Positions 15,041 to 64,000 of a stretch of DNA of 64,000 nt are shown in pieces. Each line of letters begins with the position of its first letter. Position 1 is the stretch's first letter. Where the stretch lies: assembly GCA_024644535.1 (NCBI GenBank), contig JAHEKX010000007.1:226567-290566 (forward strand), written 5' to 3'. The notes under the pieces are model-generated. The model saw nothing but the letters and a program-made list of their open reading frames with translations, was not told where the DNA came from and ran no database searches. The position numbers and the translations under genes are program-made. Origin of the DNA: Gammaproteobacteria bacterium (lineage in GTDB: Bacteria; Pseudomonadota; Gammaproteobacteria; Pseudomonadales; Halieaceae).

Positions 15041-16410
15041 TGACTAACCAATGATCCACTCCCCGCCCGACAATCTGGAAACTCCCTGCTTGGTTCTTGC
15101 CGACGACAGGCAACAGCGCGGCGCGCTTAAATTTGGCGATAGTGTGAATGAACTTATGCTATCGGTCCCGGCTTTGCCCGAGCCCGGAGACATCCCGACC
15201 CCCCCGGCCCAAGTCCGGGAAACCGGCCGATTATTTATCCCTGGGCCGACAGATCCCCTATCCTACCGTGCTTAAACATGCGATCTCGGTGGTTGAACAA
15301 CAAGTCGACATGCGAAGTAAGTTCTATGGCCGCAACAATATTGCCGTGTATAAGGGCCACGCCAAGTTTATTGATGATCAGAGAGTATCAGTTACGAGAG
15401 CCGATGGTTCTGTAGAAGAATTGCACTCGCAAGAATTCGTGATTGCCACGGGCAGCCGCCCCTATCACCCACCCGACGTCCCCTTTGAGCATTCGCGAGT
15501 CTATGACAGCGATACCATTTTGAGCTTAGAACATACACCCCGTAAGCTCATAATTTATGGGGCAGGCGTTATAGGGTGTGAATATGCCTCTATTTTTAGC
15601 GGTTTGGGTATTAAGGTTGAGTTGATTAACAGTTTCGAGAACCTATTGGCGTTTCTGGACGATGAAATCGCTGTTGCTCTAGATTACCACCTTCGCGAAT
15701 CAGGCGTCATGGTCCGTCATCGCGAGATCTACGATCGAGTAGAGGCCAACCAAGAAGGTATTGCCCTGCACTTGCAATCAGGTAAGATCATCCGAAGCGA
15801 CGCGCTACTATGGTGTAACGGCAGAAGCGGTAATACGCAAAACCTGGGACTTGAAAACATCGGGCTCCGCAGTGACGGCCGAGGCCAGATCAGAGTAAAC
15901 CATCGCTACCAAACCGAAGTAACCAATGTCTACGCAGTGGGCGATGTCATTGGCTCTCCAAGTCTTGCCAGCGCTGCTTATGATCAAGGTCGCGCCGCGG
16001 CTTCCGCTAACGACAAAGACGTTCGTTTTGTCGACGATGTCCCAACGGGCATATACACAATTCCCGAAATCAGCTCAGTTGGTCGCACCGAGCGAGAACT
16101 TACCGATAACAAAATACCTTTCGAGGTAGGCCGAGCCTTTTTCAAGGATACAGCGCGCGGACAAATCTCGGGAGAAGGCACAGGCATGCTAAAAATACTG
16201 TTTTGCCCGAGTACACTCAGAATTTTGGGAATACATTGCTTTGGTGCCGAAGCCACCGAAATTATTCACATCGGTCAAGCAATCATGAAGCAACCAGAAA
16301 CAGCGAATACCATTCGTTACTTTGTAGAAACAACCTTTAACTACCCTACTATGGCAGAAGCCTATCGCATTGCCGCATTAAATGGCTTGAATAGACTGTC
16401 GGGCTACTAG
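15041..16410 (+). pseudogene. sthA: Soluble pyridine nucleotide transhydrogenase (SthA) homologue with degenerate N-terminal FAD-binding/disulfide region
   Basis: From about 15268 on it matches SthA ([93 protein letters not shown]). No frame upstream encodes the expected N-terminal GxGxxG FAD motif or a CTHxGTIPSK motif; both frames 15051 and 15148 give low-complexity Pro-rich sequence instead. Confidence 0.65.
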
Positions 16411-56821: not shown

Positions 56822-57478
56822 TTAAGACCAAAGGGGTGATATCATCACCCCTTTTTTTATCTCCGCCAACAAGAGCTCTGCGGTCGCTATTGCGTCTACC
56901 ATGGCGTTGTGCCCTTGGTACGCCGGAAGGTTGTATCGGCGCCGGCACTGCGTAAGCGTTAACGATCCATTTTTAAGCACCTCACCACGGCGCATTAGTA
57001 GACGTTTTTCATTCAACAAGGTATCCACATAGCTGGGCCACCAGGGCGCACCAAACGCCCTTTGCATAGAGCGATTCAGGAATGCAAGATCAAGATCGGC
57101 GTTGTGAAATGCTGGCAGAGAACCGCGAGCTTCGGTCAGTAATTCGAACAAAATATCATTGATACACCGACCCTGTTGAAGCTCACAATCGCGAATCATG
57201 TGTATCGTCGCGCTTTGACCGACATTGGCATTACTTTTCACCAAACAATGCCTCGCGCTGTTCAACAGAATATCATCATGGGTCATTCGGACCCACCCGA
57301 TACTGAGAAGCTCATCCTTTGCAGGGTCAAGCCCTGTCATTTCACAGTCAATAACAATAAAGCCTTGGTAGTCGCTCGACTGTGCTCCCTGCCCTTCGAG
57401 CCAAAAGTCCTGCAAACAATCATTTACCTTACGATTTGCTCGCCGCCTACGCCACAGGTTTCGCCAACGATTAAGCAT
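56822..57478 (-). CDS. DEDD 3'-5' exonuclease (DNA polymerase III epsilon-like)
   Basis: FIVIDCEMTGLDPAKDELLSIGWV, AFHNADLDLAFLNRSM, YQGHNAMVDAIATAELLLA. Confidence 0.9.
   Translation of the reverse strand: MLNRWRNLWRRRRANRKVNDCLQDFWLEGQGAQSSDYQGFIVIDCEMTGLDPAKDELLSIGWVRMTHDDILLNSARHCLVKSNANVGQSATIHMIRDCELQQGRCINDILFELLTEARGSLPAFHNADLDLAFLNRSMQRAFGAPWWPSYVDTLLNEKRLLMRRGEVLKNGSLTLTQCRRRYNLPAYQGHNAMVDAIATAELLLAEIKKGVMISPLWS
56831..56858 (+). terminator. Rho-independent terminator for the nitronate monooxygenase gene
   Basis: AAGGGGTGAT-ATC-ATCACCCCTT perfect 10-bp stem followed by a T tract; lies 15 nt after the stop at 56815. Confidence 0.85.
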
Positions 57479-59325
57479 TAATCTAAGCCTGATCGATAAC
57501 GTAGCTTGATCACACTTTGCGCCTCTTTGATGATCGTAAAGGCATCGCGTAATTGTTCTTTACCCATTGTGCCAAGCGTCCTAGGGTTAATGTAATTACC
57601 CGGCGCTTCTCCGACCTCAATCAATCGACACTGCTCATCAATGCGAGCCTGCTGCAAAGTATGCAAAGCGTCGCTCAAGTTCCGTGCGTTCTTAATCTGC
57701 AACACCCCGTTCTTGGCTAAGGCACTAATACGCTCGTCTGTATTGACCTCAGGCAAACCATTAGCCAAGGCATGCAGGCGAGCGATATCAGTAATGGGTA
57801 AAATACCCCGCTTCTTAATATTTACCGACTCTTTGTGCTCCCCATTGTGTTCAACAATGAAGCGTCGGAAGACGCCCAAAGGTGGCGTTGCTCCGAGAGC
57901 GTTGGCCGCGAGTGCCGCAATAAAAATGGTATTGCCTTGAGTTTCGCGACGCATTGTTTGTTGCAGTCGCTCCGCCAAACTTAGATCACCGTATATCCCG
58001 CGGATATCGAAGAAAATTGTGACTCGCATTACCGCATCTTCGGTGGGAGTCCGAGTCCACTTAGCGACAGTCTCCTGCCACCGCCGCAGACTCATCCGCC
58101 ATTCGGTATTTTTCGCCATTATATTCCCGGGACAGTAGCGATAGCCCACCAGCGCTAGTCCATCGCAGACATAGTTGGCTACATCTCGATACCAATCTCG
58201 CTCCGTCAAAGGTACGCCGTCATCAATGACCATGCCGTTGTCTTGATCTGCTCCAAGCAGTTGCTCGCCGCGCCCCTGAGAACCAAAACCTAACCAACAA
58301 TAGGGTCCTGGGGCTGGACCATACCGGACTTCAGCTAGTTGCAACAAACGAACAACGATCGCATCACTAATTGCAGTCAGTAAGCGGCTGACATGCTGAG
58401 ACTTAAGACCCGAAGACGACCACGCCACCATAAGCGAGGGCAAGTGCGTTACTATTGCGGCAATTGCCTCAACCGAATCTTGACGGCCGATGTGGGTCAC
58501 CAAGTAGACCGGGTCATCTTGCTTAGCGAGCATCAAGTCAGACGTAGTAACAACACCGACTAAGCAATCTTGATCGATTACCGGAATGTGGTGAACACCC
58601 AGCTGCGTCATAGCAAGTGTGGCATCAAAAATTGTCGACTGAGCGCTCAGCGTTTTGGGACCACTGGTCATAATGGCGCTAACGGGCTCCAATACACTTA
58701 GCGCCTTTGCGACGCAGCGGACCCTGAGGTCACGATCGGTTACAATCCCGCTTAGAGCACCCTTATTGGTTATAAATGCCGAACTGACTCTCCTCTCAGA
58801 CATTAGCTCGGCGACCCGCTGTATCGATGTGCTAGCGACGACGGTCAACACGGACTTGGCCATAATACCGGAAATAGCTGCATTCATCCGGTGAGGAATT
58901 GGCTCATAGCGTGCAGCCCTCCGTAATCTTCGGCTGCGTTGGGCTGAAAAGTAGCGATCAAAATGCCGCTGCTCCTTTCTAAGCGCTTGATAAGCGTCAG
59001 AAGGTAGCACATAGACAAGAGTGTCTTCTATGGCTTTAGCACCGACTTGAAGGCTTGTCGCATTAAGCCCCCGTAGACTAAAACTTTCCCCCTCGCCCAG
59101 GCGATCCATTAAAGAACCATCTTGATAGAACAGATCTACCGCTCCCGAGCGCAGCACCCTTAATCCTACTCGCTCGTCGTTCTGAAACAACTCGCCCTGT
59201 GGGTGGTAACAAATTTGAATCTGTGCAGCGATTACTGCTAAACGATCCGATGACAGAGAGTCAAAAGGCAAGGTCCCAGCCAGAAACTCTCTAACCGGAT
59301 TTAATTCGACGGATTCAGCTGCCAT
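57478..59325 (-). CDS. cNMP-binding/CBS/DUF294 nucleotidyltransferase-like signalling protein
   Basis: N-terminal cNMP-like domain, paired CBS region (VTDRDLRVRCVAK, HHIPVIDQDCLVGVVTTSDLM), WLGFGSQGRGEQLLGADQDNGMVIDD nucleotidyltransferase block. Confidence 0.92.
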   Translation of the reverse strand: MAAESVELNPVREFLAGTLPFDSLSSDRLAVIAAQIQICYHPQGELFQNDERVGLRVLRSGAVDLFYQDGSLMDRLGEGESFSLRGLNATSLQVGAKAIEDTLVYVLPSDAYQALRKEQRHFDRYFSAQRSRRLRRAARYEPIPHRMNAAISGIMAKSVLTVVASTSIQRVAELMSERRVSSAFITNKGALSGIVTDRDLRVRCVAKALSVLEPVSAIMTSGPKTLSAQSTIFDATLAMTQLGVHHIPVIDQDCLVGVVTTSDLMLAKQDDPVYLVTHIGRQDSVEAIAAIVTHLPSLMVAWSSSGLKSQHVSRLLTAISDAIVVRLLQLAEVRYGPAPGPYCWLGFGSQGRGEQLLGADQDNGMVIDDGVPLTERDWYRDVANYVCDGLALVGYRYCPGNIMAKNTEWRMSLRRWQETVAKWTRTPTEDAVMRVTIFFDIRGIYGDLSLAERLQQTMRRETQGNTIFIAALAANALGATPPLGVFRRFIVEHNGEHKESVNIKKRGILPITDIARLHALANGLPEVNTDERISALAKNGVLQIKNARNLSDALHTLQQARIDEQCRLIEVGEAPGNYINPRTLGTMGKEQLRDAFTIIKEAQSVIKLRYRSGLD

Positions 59326-59878: not shown

Positions 59879-61609
59879 TTAGTGATCTTGGGCCATTCCG
59901 GCGCCGGCGGGCACTCGAATATTTTCAACTAACTCTTGCACATCGTCTGGCACTTCTTTCGTTACGCTGGACACTGCAAAGGCTACTCCGAAGTTAACGA
60001 TCGCGCCAACACACCCGAACGCATTTGGCTCGATACCCATAAACCAGTTCGGTGACAGGCTACCCAAAAACTCAGTACCCTGGATAAACATGATACCTTT
60101 ATGCTGGAACACATACAGCAAGGTAACACCGATACCTGCGACCATACCCGCAATGGCACCTTCTTTATTTACGCGTTTGCTGAAAATACCCATCATCAGC
60201 GCGGGGAAAATTGACGAAGCTGCTAGACCAAAGGCCAAGGCTACAGTTCCAGCCGCGAATCCAGGTGGGTTAAAGCCGAGGTACCCAGCACCGGCAATTG
60301 CTACAGCCATTGCTACGCGCGAAGCCATCAACTCTTGCTTCTCATCGATATCTGGCGTCAACATCCCTTTTAGTAAGTCGTGCGAAATAGCCGACGAAAT
60401 CGCTAGCAGTAAGCCTGCAGCAGTCGATAGAGCCGCCGCTAAACCGCCTGCGGCGACTAAGGCGATTACCCAATTAGGTAGTTTCGCAATCTCAGGGTTT
60501 GCCAATACCAAGATATCGTTGTCTACTTTGGTTAATTCGTTCGTCGCTTTATCTGCGCTGTACTGAATTAAGCCATCACCATTTTTATCGGTGTAACCCA
60601 AAAGACCGGTCTTCTCCCAGTTTTTAAACCACTGTGGCCGCTCTTCGTAAGCCAAATATACGCCCGGCTCAGGCTCGACTGTCTCCATGATATTGAAGCG
60701 AGCCATCGCACCAACTGCAGGTGCTGTGGTGTACAGTACCGCAATGAATACCAGAGCCCAACCAGCCGACGATCGTGCATCGCGGACTTTTGGTACGGTG
60801 AAGAAACGGATGATGACGTGAGGCAAACCCGCAGTACCTACCATTAAAGATAGGGTGTAAGCGAACATATTCAAGGTCGATATTCGAACATCGGTGGTGT
60901 ATTCCTTAAACCCCAGCTCGGTGACCGTTTGATCCAGTTTATCAAGCAAGAATGTGTCGGTACCACTTAAGGTGCTACCCAAGCCCAGCTGCGGAAAAGG
61001 GTTGCCAGTAAGTTGTAGGCTGATAAATATTGCAGGAATAGTGTAAGCCAAGATAAGCACGCAGTACTGAGCAATCTGAGTGTAAGTAATACCCTTCATA
61101 CCACCGAGAACGGCGTAGAAGAACACAATCACCATACCCACCAACAACCCAGTCTCATAACTCACTTCCAGAAAGCGCGAGAAGGCAACGCCGATGCCCT
61201 TCATCTGACCGATTACATAAGTCACCGAACAGATAATCAAACATACAACCGCTACCGCTCGTGCAGTTTTAGAATAGAAGCGGTCACCAATAAACTCAGG
61301 CACGGTAAACTTTCCGTACTTACGCAAATAAGGCGCTAGCAACATTGCCAAGATCACGAAGCCACCGGTCCATCCCATTAAGAACACCGAACCACCGTAG
61401 CCCATAAAGGCAATCATGCCCGCCATTGAAATGAATGACGCTGCCGACATCCAGTCAGCGGCCGTTGCCATACCATTAGCAACCGGGTTAATACCGCCCC
61501 CAGCAACATAGAACTCTTTGGTTGAGCCGGCTCGGGCCCAGATCGCGATCCCGATATAGAGAGCGAAGGTAAATCCTACGACAACGTAAGTTAAAGTTTG
61601 CAATTCCAT
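59879..61609 (-). CDS. Sodium:solute symporter (ActP/VC_2705-like)
   Basis: SSS-family sequence (FYVAGGGINPVANGMATAADWMSAASFISMAGMIAFMGYGG, FTVPEFIGDRFYSKTARAVAV, GGLAAALSTAAGLLLAISSAISHDLLKG) with a DKNGDGLIQY insertion. Confidence 0.94.
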   Translation of the reverse strand: MELQTLTYVVVGFTFALYIGIAIWARAGSTKEFYVAGGGINPVANGMATAADWMSAASFISMAGMIAFMGYGGSVFLMGWTGGFVILAMLLAPYLRKYGKFTVPEFIGDRFYSKTARAVAVVCLIICSVTYVIGQMKGIGVAFSRFLEVSYETGLLVGMVIVFFYAVLGGMKGITYTQIAQYCVLILAYTIPAIFISLQLTGNPFPQLGLGSTLSGTDTFLLDKLDQTVTELGFKEYTTDVRISTLNMFAYTLSLMVGTAGLPHVIIRFFTVPKVRDARSSAGWALVFIAVLYTTAPAVGAMARFNIMETVEPEPGVYLAYEERPQWFKNWEKTGLLGYTDKNGDGLIQYSADKATNELTKVDNDILVLANPEIAKLPNWVIALVAAGGLAAALSTAAGLLLAISSAISHDLLKGMLTPDIDEKQELMASRVAMAVAIAGAGYLGFNPPGFAAGTVALAFGLAASSIFPALMMGIFSKRVNKEGAIAGMVAGIGVTLLYVFQHKGIMFIQGTEFLGSLSPNWFMGIEPNAFGCVGAIVNFGVAFAVSSVTKEVPDDVQELVENIRVPAGAGMAQDH

Positions 61610-61621
61610 AGCGTCGATTCC

Positions 61622-61888
61622 TTATTCTTCTTCAACGTTAAATTCACGATCTAACGCTGCCATTTTCTTGGTGTAATAAAAAATTAAGGCCACAAAGGTG
61701 TAAATCGAACCCTGTTGTGCAAACCAAAACCCCAACTTGTAACCCCCCAATCTGATCTCGTTTAAGGCATCAAAAAGCAAAATGCCGCAACCATAGCTTA
61801 CGATAAACCACACCACCATAAGCTTGACCATCAGCGACAAATTGCGCTTCCAGTAAGCCCGAGCTTGATCATCGGTTAATTTGGACAT
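61622..61888 (-). CDS. DUF4212 small membrane protein
   Basis: AYWKRNLSLMVKLMVVWFIVSYGCGILLFDALNEIRLGGYKLGFWFAQQGSIYTFVALIFYYTKKM; classical partner upstream of the symporter. Confidence 0.92.
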   Translation of the reverse strand: MSKLTDDQARAYWKRNLSLMVKLMVVWFIVSYGCGILLFDALNEIRLGGYKLGFWFAQQGSIYTFVALIFYYTKKMAALDREFNVEEE

Positions 61889-61966
61889 GAGTATCTCCTC
61901 GTTGTTATGAACCCGACTGACTTGATGGTACCGGCCAAGTTAGTCGCGCGCTGTTAGACCTTAGTC

Positions 61967-63190
61967 TTAGAAAGCATATTTGACTGATAACTGCAGGCGA
62001 TTCATATCACCATCACGACCATCTTCCAATTCCTTGCTGGCAAACATGAGCTCTCCACCTAGCATCAATCCCGGTGCTGGCAAATATTGCAGGTTTGCAT
62101 GGAAAGACTGGTACTGTTTAGCCAGACCACCCGCTGCGGCGTAGTCAGCCATTGAAGGGTTATCCGCACTGGCGACAGACGCCGAAAATACACTTCGCCA
62201 TTCGGGGTTCCAGTAGTGTTCATACGCCAAGGTCAGAGCTGTCTGGTCGATGGTCTCGATATCACCCTTCACGTTCAAATAACCGTCATTAAAGGCGTTC
62301 AATCCTAAGTATCGGCCCAAAGCTGAACCGTGGTTCAACATGTATTTCAGGTTGTTTTTACCTTCGGTAACGACCTTTCCGGCCAAGCTCAAACCATATC
62401 CCATGGCTTTATCGCTCTCTCCTTCCAGCGCTAAGGTACTGCGATCTTCATATCGCAACGTACGCATGACGCCCGCCAAAGAATAAGAATGGCCACCGTT
62501 TCCGCCGTTGTAGCGAACCACAATGTCCGGCATGGCTTCTGCATCATCCAGACGTGTACCATTTAGGCTATTCAAGCGGGTTGCGGGGTTTTCTAGAGCA
62601 AACTGATAATTACCGTTAGTCCAACGGATCATGGGTTGACGGTTAAACAGTGTGCCAACTGGACCAACAAAGTCCAACACACCAGGAAGGGCACCGACGT
62701 TAAAGAAAGTTGACCACGTTTGCCCTGCAAAGTGCAGGTTAATCATTTGCCATGCTTGAGCCAAGGCTTTGAACTGTAGCGCAATGTATGGCACAACTGC
62801 AGCAACAGCGACCACTGTCACGATTAATGCAAGGGACGGTCGCTTACCAAAACGAGCCGACAAATAATCGGCTAAGGATGTGACTCGCTGCTTCCGCCTT
62901 GTGTCGACCATGCGTTTGAACAGCGGCCACGCCAGCAGCATCAGCAAAATTGGACCCATATAAATAGGCGCGTGCGCCCATGGGCTGGTATTCGCTGTAC
63001 CTACCGCTCCGTAAAACGTCCAAGAAGAGCAATACACTCCGAGCGAGAGCGCATAGACGAGCCCGCGCATGGTTTTACTAGACAATAGTGAACGACCAGC
63101 ATCAACTCGGCGGTCAGCCAGCCAGGCCACCAAAAACAACACGAACATGTAGGCAATTCCAAGAGTTGCCAACAGCGTTGGTGATATCAT
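61967..63190 (-). CDS. Chimeric ORF: N-terminal SSS membrane region of a CbrA-like sensor kinase joined to C-terminal beta-barrel of a DcaP-like porin
   Basis: Residues about 1-143 (RGLVYALSLGVYCSSWTFYGAVGTA, QRVTSLADYLSARFGKR, AAVVPYIALQFKAL) match the start of SSS-type hybrid kinases; residues about 155-407 (FAGQTWSTFFNVGALPGVLDFVGPVGTLFNRQPMIRWTNGNYQFALENP ... LQLSVKYAF) match an outer-membrane porin ending in an aromatic residue. Confidence 0.8.
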   Translation of the reverse strand: MISPTLLATLGIAYMFVLFLVAWLADRRVDAGRSLLSSKTMRGLVYALSLGVYCSSWTFYGAVGTANTSPWAHAPIYMGPILLMLLAWPLFKRMVDTRRKQRVTSLADYLSARFGKRPSLALIVTVVAVAAVVPYIALQFKALAQAWQMINLHFAGQTWSTFFNVGALPGVLDFVGPVGTLFNRQPMIRWTNGNYQFALENPATRLNSLNGTRLDDAEAMPDIVVRYNGGNGGHSYSLAGVMRTLRYEDRSTLALEGESDKAMGYGLSLAGKVVTEGKNNLKYMLNHGSALGRYLGLNAFNDGYLNVKGDIETIDQTALTLAYEHYWNPEWRSVFSASVASADNPSMADYAAAGGLAKQYQSFHANLQYLPAPGLMLGGELMFASKELEDGRDGDMNRLQLSVKYAF

Positions 63191-63250: not shown

Positions 63251-64000
63251 TCAGCTCAGGAGTACAAATGCGCACCACGCCAATGCATACGACAGCAGAC
63301 CATAACCGACCAAAAGTTGTAGCGGTAATTTAGCACTACCGCCCTCTCGGTATAGAGTTGCCAGTGTCGACACGCATTGTGCAGCAACCGCAAAGAACAC
63401 CAGTAAGGCCACACCGGACGCCAAAGGCATACCGCTGTCTTGCACCCGCGTTGCCAAGGACACAACGTTCTCGGTAGCATCTTCAATGCCGTACAAGGTA
63501 CCCAAGGTGCCGACAAATACTTCGCGTGCAACGAATGACGCCAAAATCGCAATGCCATACTTCCAATCTAACCCTAAGGGTTGGAACAAGGGCTCTATCA
63601 GACGGCCCACTGTGGCTAGATAGGACTGCGATAGATCTTGACCTTGATTGGGAAAATACCCCAAAAACCAGATCACCATGGTAATCCAAAAAATAACGGG
63701 ACCCGCTTTTTTAACGAAATACCCGGCTCGCTCGACTGCGCCCCTAAGAATAGATTGCCACGAAGGTATTCGATACGGAGGCATTTCCAGCACAAAAGGT
63801 GCATCTTGCGCTTTCTGGGGAGTAACGCGAGAAATTACGGCGGTTACCAGCAAGGCGGTCACAATACCAAACAAATAAATACCGAACATCGCTAGGCCCT
63901 GTAATCCTAAAAGACCACCCGCTATGGTTTCGTTGGGAATAAAAGCGGCGATCAAGAGTGCATATACCGGCAAACGGGCAGAGCATGGCATCAAGGGAAT
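63251..64000 (-). CDS. feoB: Ferrous iron transporter FeoB, C-terminal part (5' end beyond right edge)
   Basis: IPLMPCSARLPVYALLIAAFIP, VLEMPPYRIPSWQSILRGAVERAGYFVKKAGPVIFWITMVIWFLGYFP, FVAREVFVGTLGTLYG. Confidence 0.94.
   Translation of the reverse strand: MPLMPCSARLPVYALLIAAFIPNETIAGGLLGLQGLAMFGIYLFGIVTALLVTAVISRVTPQKAQDAPFVLEMPPYRIPSWQSILRGAVERAGYFVKKAGPVIFWITMVIWFLGYFPNQGQDLSQSYLATVGRLIEPLFQPLGLDWKYGIAILASFVAREVFVGTLGTLYGIEDATENVVSLATRVQDSGMPLASGVALLVFFAVAAQCVSTLATLYREGGSAKLPLQLLVGYGLLSYALAWCAFVLLS

Follow-up and report, generated by a model that had tools for sequence, protein, structure and literature searches.

An in-frame sensor-kinase/porin chimera as the probable relic of a recent deletion, or of an assembly mistake, at a symporter locus

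Gene-fusion pseudogenes that arise by deletion between short direct repeats occur in bacteria. Porins of the DcaP family take up carboxylic acids and are composed of a signal peptide, a periplasmic N-terminal coiled coil and a 16-stranded barrel (PMC12338516). Sensor kinases of the CrbS type, which with the regulator CrbR form an acetate-switch system (CrbS/CrbR, or MxtR/ErdR), are distinguished from CbrA by a receiver (REC) domain (PMC5715377). In the DNA studied here, a stretch of 64 kb hereafter called the window, parts of a kinase and of a porin resembling these systems are found in one reading frame. The following features were delimited, in part by comparison with G004, a complete, single-contig genome of the same genus.

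61967 to 63190, minus strand: chimeric open reading frame (ORF), kinase N-terminus plus porin C-terminus, a single uninterrupted frame of 407 amino acids
62726 to 63190, minus strand: kinase-derived part, first ~155 codons of a predicted CrbS/MxtR-type SSS hybrid histidine kinase (identity to G004 and Pfam SSF)
61967 to 62725, minus strand: porin-derived part, codons ~226–478 of a DcaP-family porin (identity to G004 and Pfam DcaP)
62718 to 62728, minus strand: putative deletion junction, inside an imperfect 11-nt direct repeat, at codons 155–158 (base-level comparison with G004)
63251 to 64000, minus strand: 3' part of feoB, upstream of the kinase part
61953 to 61969, minus strand: candidate CrbR-box (ACTU)-like site TAAGACTAAGGTCTAAC, which overlaps the stop codon of the porin part and precedes the DUF4212 gene (position weight matrix)
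61622 to 61888, minus strand: DUF4212 small subunit of a VC_2705-type symporter, intact
59879 to 61609, minus strand: VC_2705-family sodium/solute symporter, intact (TIGR03648, 847.7 bits)

The preliminary description of this DNA had read the ORF as an in-frame sensor-kinase/porin chimera, and the uninterrupted frame and its two Pfam matches confirm this. SSF covers residues 36–144 (profile 3–109 of 406, E 2.5e-8) and DcaP residues 152–407 (profile 162–410 of 410, E 9.3e-8), the latter with 31.9 bits against a curated cut-off of 27. Residues 1–162 are 91% identical to the 1175-aa kinase of G004, and residues 154–407 are 95% identical to residues 225–478 of its 478-aa porin. As had also been noted, most of the SSS domain and the whole signalling apparatus are absent: Pfam finds no PAS, HisKA, HATPase, REC or STAC domain in the ORF, and the SSF match shows that the SLC5 domain, which has 13 membrane segments in CrbS/MxtR, is incomplete, the kinase part comprising only the first membrane segments. 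Hydropathy gives two strong peaks in the kept part, with more beyond the junction in the G004 kinase. The porin part likewise lacks its signal peptide and first strands, as had been proposed, together with the N-terminal region; codons 1–225, nearly half of the gene, are deleted relative to G004. The C-terminal Phe of the porin part remains intact, and the kinase start and the 60-bp spacer to feoB are retained.

On either side of the ORF the window and G004 are collinear, and the BLASTN alignments abut at the chimera junction. In G004, feoB is followed by the 1175-aa kinase gene, a divergent gene for a 220-aa LuxR-type response regulator and the porin gene, after which, judging from collinearity, come the DUF4212 and symporter genes; this agrees with the order already suggested for the ancestral locus, with the regulator gene added between kinase and porin. 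A single G004 segment of 4,648 bp is missing from the window, holding kinase codons 156–1175, the divergent regulator gene and porin codons 1–225. An internal deletion joining neighbouring genes, as first proposed, is supported, as is the idea that the symporter locus has been left without its sensor. Kinase and porin are indeed the genes fused, but three genes rather than two are affected, the regulator gene between them having been lost as well. The switch between the two sequences, placed earlier at nt 62722–62770 (residues 141–156), does exist but lies at the downstream edge of that interval, at nt 62718–62728 (residues 155–158). There, the G004 kinase reads GCCGATCAAAC, the G004 porin GCAGGTCAAAC and the chimera GCAGGGCAAAC; base by base, the chimera follows the kinase sequence up to CACTTTGC and the porin sequence from GCAGG on. 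The two copies in G004 stand 4,648 bp apart, in the same codon phase, and are identical at 9 of 11 nucleotides, a match reached by about 0.16% of random kinase/porin position pairs (P about 0.0016). Such a repeat fits a deletion between short direct repeats. Known deletion-fusion pseudogenes resemble this locus in that two truncated neighbours are joined at a short repeat and the rest of the locus is untouched; they differ in that the present chimera happens to be in frame.

The kinase had been described as CbrA-type, which was not borne out. The complete G004 kinase carries an SSS-type N-terminus followed by PAS, HisKA, HATPase and a C-terminal REC domain, and its divergent LuxR-type partner best matches ErdR (204.7 bits, below the NCBIfam curated cut-off of 390). 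Judging from this architecture and partner, we assign the kinase to the CrbS/MxtR hybrid type and describe the lost regulator as ErdR/CrbR-like. CbrA was also rejected as the kinase identity on the ground that a separate CbrA/CbrB-like pair is intact in the same genome, on contig C24, which carries acs too. The intact G004 locus thus resembles the CrbS/CrbR system, with the caveat of the sub-threshold ErdR match, whereas the window keeps only the first ~155 kinase codons and has no regulator.

The resemblance extends to CrbR-box-like sites, which lie near acs, the porin gene and the symporter gene. With a position weight matrix built from six published ACTU (CrbR) sites (PMC5715377, Table 4), the site at 61953–61969 is the best on the 366-kb contig (17.1), and the same site occurs in G004. 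Shuffled contigs reach 15.4–17.9, one of them scoring higher than the real contig, so that the scores alone are not significant and position and conservation carry the case. A similar site lies ~79 nt before acs (contig C24:31634) and is conserved in G004, while the genome under study has no CrbR; the best hit in G004 itself falls in the regulator–porin spacer, which is lost here. Beside the symporter gene, a protein encoded at 57478–59325 (cNMP, CBS and DUF294 domains) is similar to Pflu5625 as described, a protein that belongs to the CrbS/R regulon of Pseudomonas fluorescens.

We surveyed 58 relatives, 140 genomes of the family and 392 of the order (overlapping sets, one genome per species), and none of them held both halves in one frame; the join is seen in this genome only, and a conserved fused family was rejected. 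The halves are separate, intact genes in G004 and two other genomes (G001 and G002), and their counterparts lie on the same strand, 5.6–8.3 kb apart, in 19 genomes. Comparison with sister loci, which had been advanced as a check, therefore shows kinase and porin carried separately and no conserved full-length fusion.

Divergence from G004 is informative about the age of the join. dN is 0.044 for the kinase half and 0.027 for the porin half, comparable to 0.037 for the intact neighbour feoB, with a high dS (about 1 or saturated). In the porin half, 5 amino-acid and 19 silent changes are private to this genome, against 0 and 17 in G004 (Fisher P 0.065), a ratio no different from that of feoB. 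With no clear excess of amino-acid change in either half, an old decaying pseudogene was rejected, and since neither half has decayed, the join must be either very recent or artificial.

A second clean gene-cutting junction lies at 15242–15247, ~47 kb from the kinase/porin join, where 16 kb present in G004 are lacking. The segment comprises the 3' part of a gene for a 1191-aa protein, hemN, an fnr-like gene, cbb3-type oxidase genes and the 5' end of sthA (names read from translations); the sthA remnant persists as an ORF at 15148–16410, without its N-terminal FAD-binding part. This junction is out of frame, so that the frame kept at the kinase/porin join is within chance and no sign of selection. 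A third candidate on the same contig, at C3:333767, was rejected as a clean deletion, its base-level junction not being clean and containing a stretch that resembles neither side; at C3:333767–333897 there is a 5.4-kb gap relative to G004, with fragments of 646-aa and 316-aa genes left. Two further differences from G004 were observed on C3. The gene at the window start (C3:226371–228002) encodes 543 instead of 739 amino acids, with an altered C-terminal part and ~0.4 kb missing, and C3:205072–207951 encodes a protein of 959 instead of 1139 amino acids, with ~175 internal residues missing or diverged.

We consider it probable that the ORF is a recent, non-functional relic of a fusion born by deletion. 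The preliminary description had named an assembly error as the main alternative, and it remains the chief rival given two clean gaps in the window without decay: an assembly or amplification artefact, in which the contig skips ~4.6 kb present in the cells (through a strain-mixture bubble, a library chimera or a misjoin at a short repeat), is possible but rather unlikely. It would account for the lack of decay in either half, for a join that no other genome shows and for the equally clean 16-kb gap 47 kb away; two large, clean, gene-cutting deletions in one 64-kb window, apparently without decay, are more than expected for one wild genome and are also compatible with an artefact or a mixture of strains, raising the odds of an assembly problem or of strain-level deletions. 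On the other side, no other place in the assembly contains the missing 4.6-kb DNA, the kinase or the regulator (the best residual match to the regulator has 30% identity), by which a rearranged rather than lost segment was rejected and which leans toward real absence. The 16-kb segment is also on no other contig, in an assembly rated 97.4% complete, and comparison of 159 kb of other contigs with G004, at the level of BLASTN blocks, gave no similar gap that cuts genes cleanly. Moreover, usual assembly k-mers are longer than an imperfect repeat of 11 nt, which counts against an artefact.

That the chimera functions as a protein and is maintained by selection, for instance as an inner-membrane-anchored periplasmic barrel fragment, is very improbable. 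In its favour, the ORF keeps its frame, its start region and the C-terminal Phe, and constraint is apparent in both halves. That constraint, however, is accounted for by the time before the join, the fusion is found in one genome only, all signalling domains and nearly half of the porin with its signal peptide are absent, and the window's two clean junctions differ, one being in frame and the other not. Still bolder, and extremely improbable, is the reading that such a fragment is expressed and has acquired a new function, the lineage having rewired its acetate response.

If the deletion relic that we favour is real, the ancestral order would have been that of G004 today: feoB, CrbS-type kinase, divergent CrbR-type regulator, DcaP porin, DUF4212 and symporter. 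Some 4,650 bp would then have been deleted very recently, between two short stretches of similar sequence, joining kinase codon ~155 to porin codon ~226, with the frame kept by chance. As the kinase spacer and start region are kept, translation of the fusion from the kinase start is likely, and its N-terminal helices would insert it into the inner membrane, where it would serve neither as sensor nor as porin. Hydropathy and charges suggest that the membrane helix at residues 120–138 leads to the periplasmic side, with the porin part coming after it. The C-terminal ~253 residues match the DcaP family (PDB 6EUS) through the terminal Phe, but the chimera is without ~225 N-terminal residues of the porin including the signal peptide, so that a complete 16-stranded barrel cannot form. 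The product is expected to be non-functional and probably degraded. The strain would have lost both the CrbS/CrbR acetate switch and the porin, and acs and the symporter would keep CrbR-box-like sites without their regulator.

The ORF is almost certainly no new kind of protein, but a broken remnant left by a very recent deletion or by an error in the assembly. A striking mixture of domains can thus be a plain deletion scar, and the ORF should be annotated neither as a kinase nor as a porin. If the join is artificial, the assembly contains errors at two positions of the window. If the deletion is real, it would be a natural instance in which a CrbS/CrbR-type acetate switch is lost while its candidate target sites remain, a small natural experiment in regulon loss.
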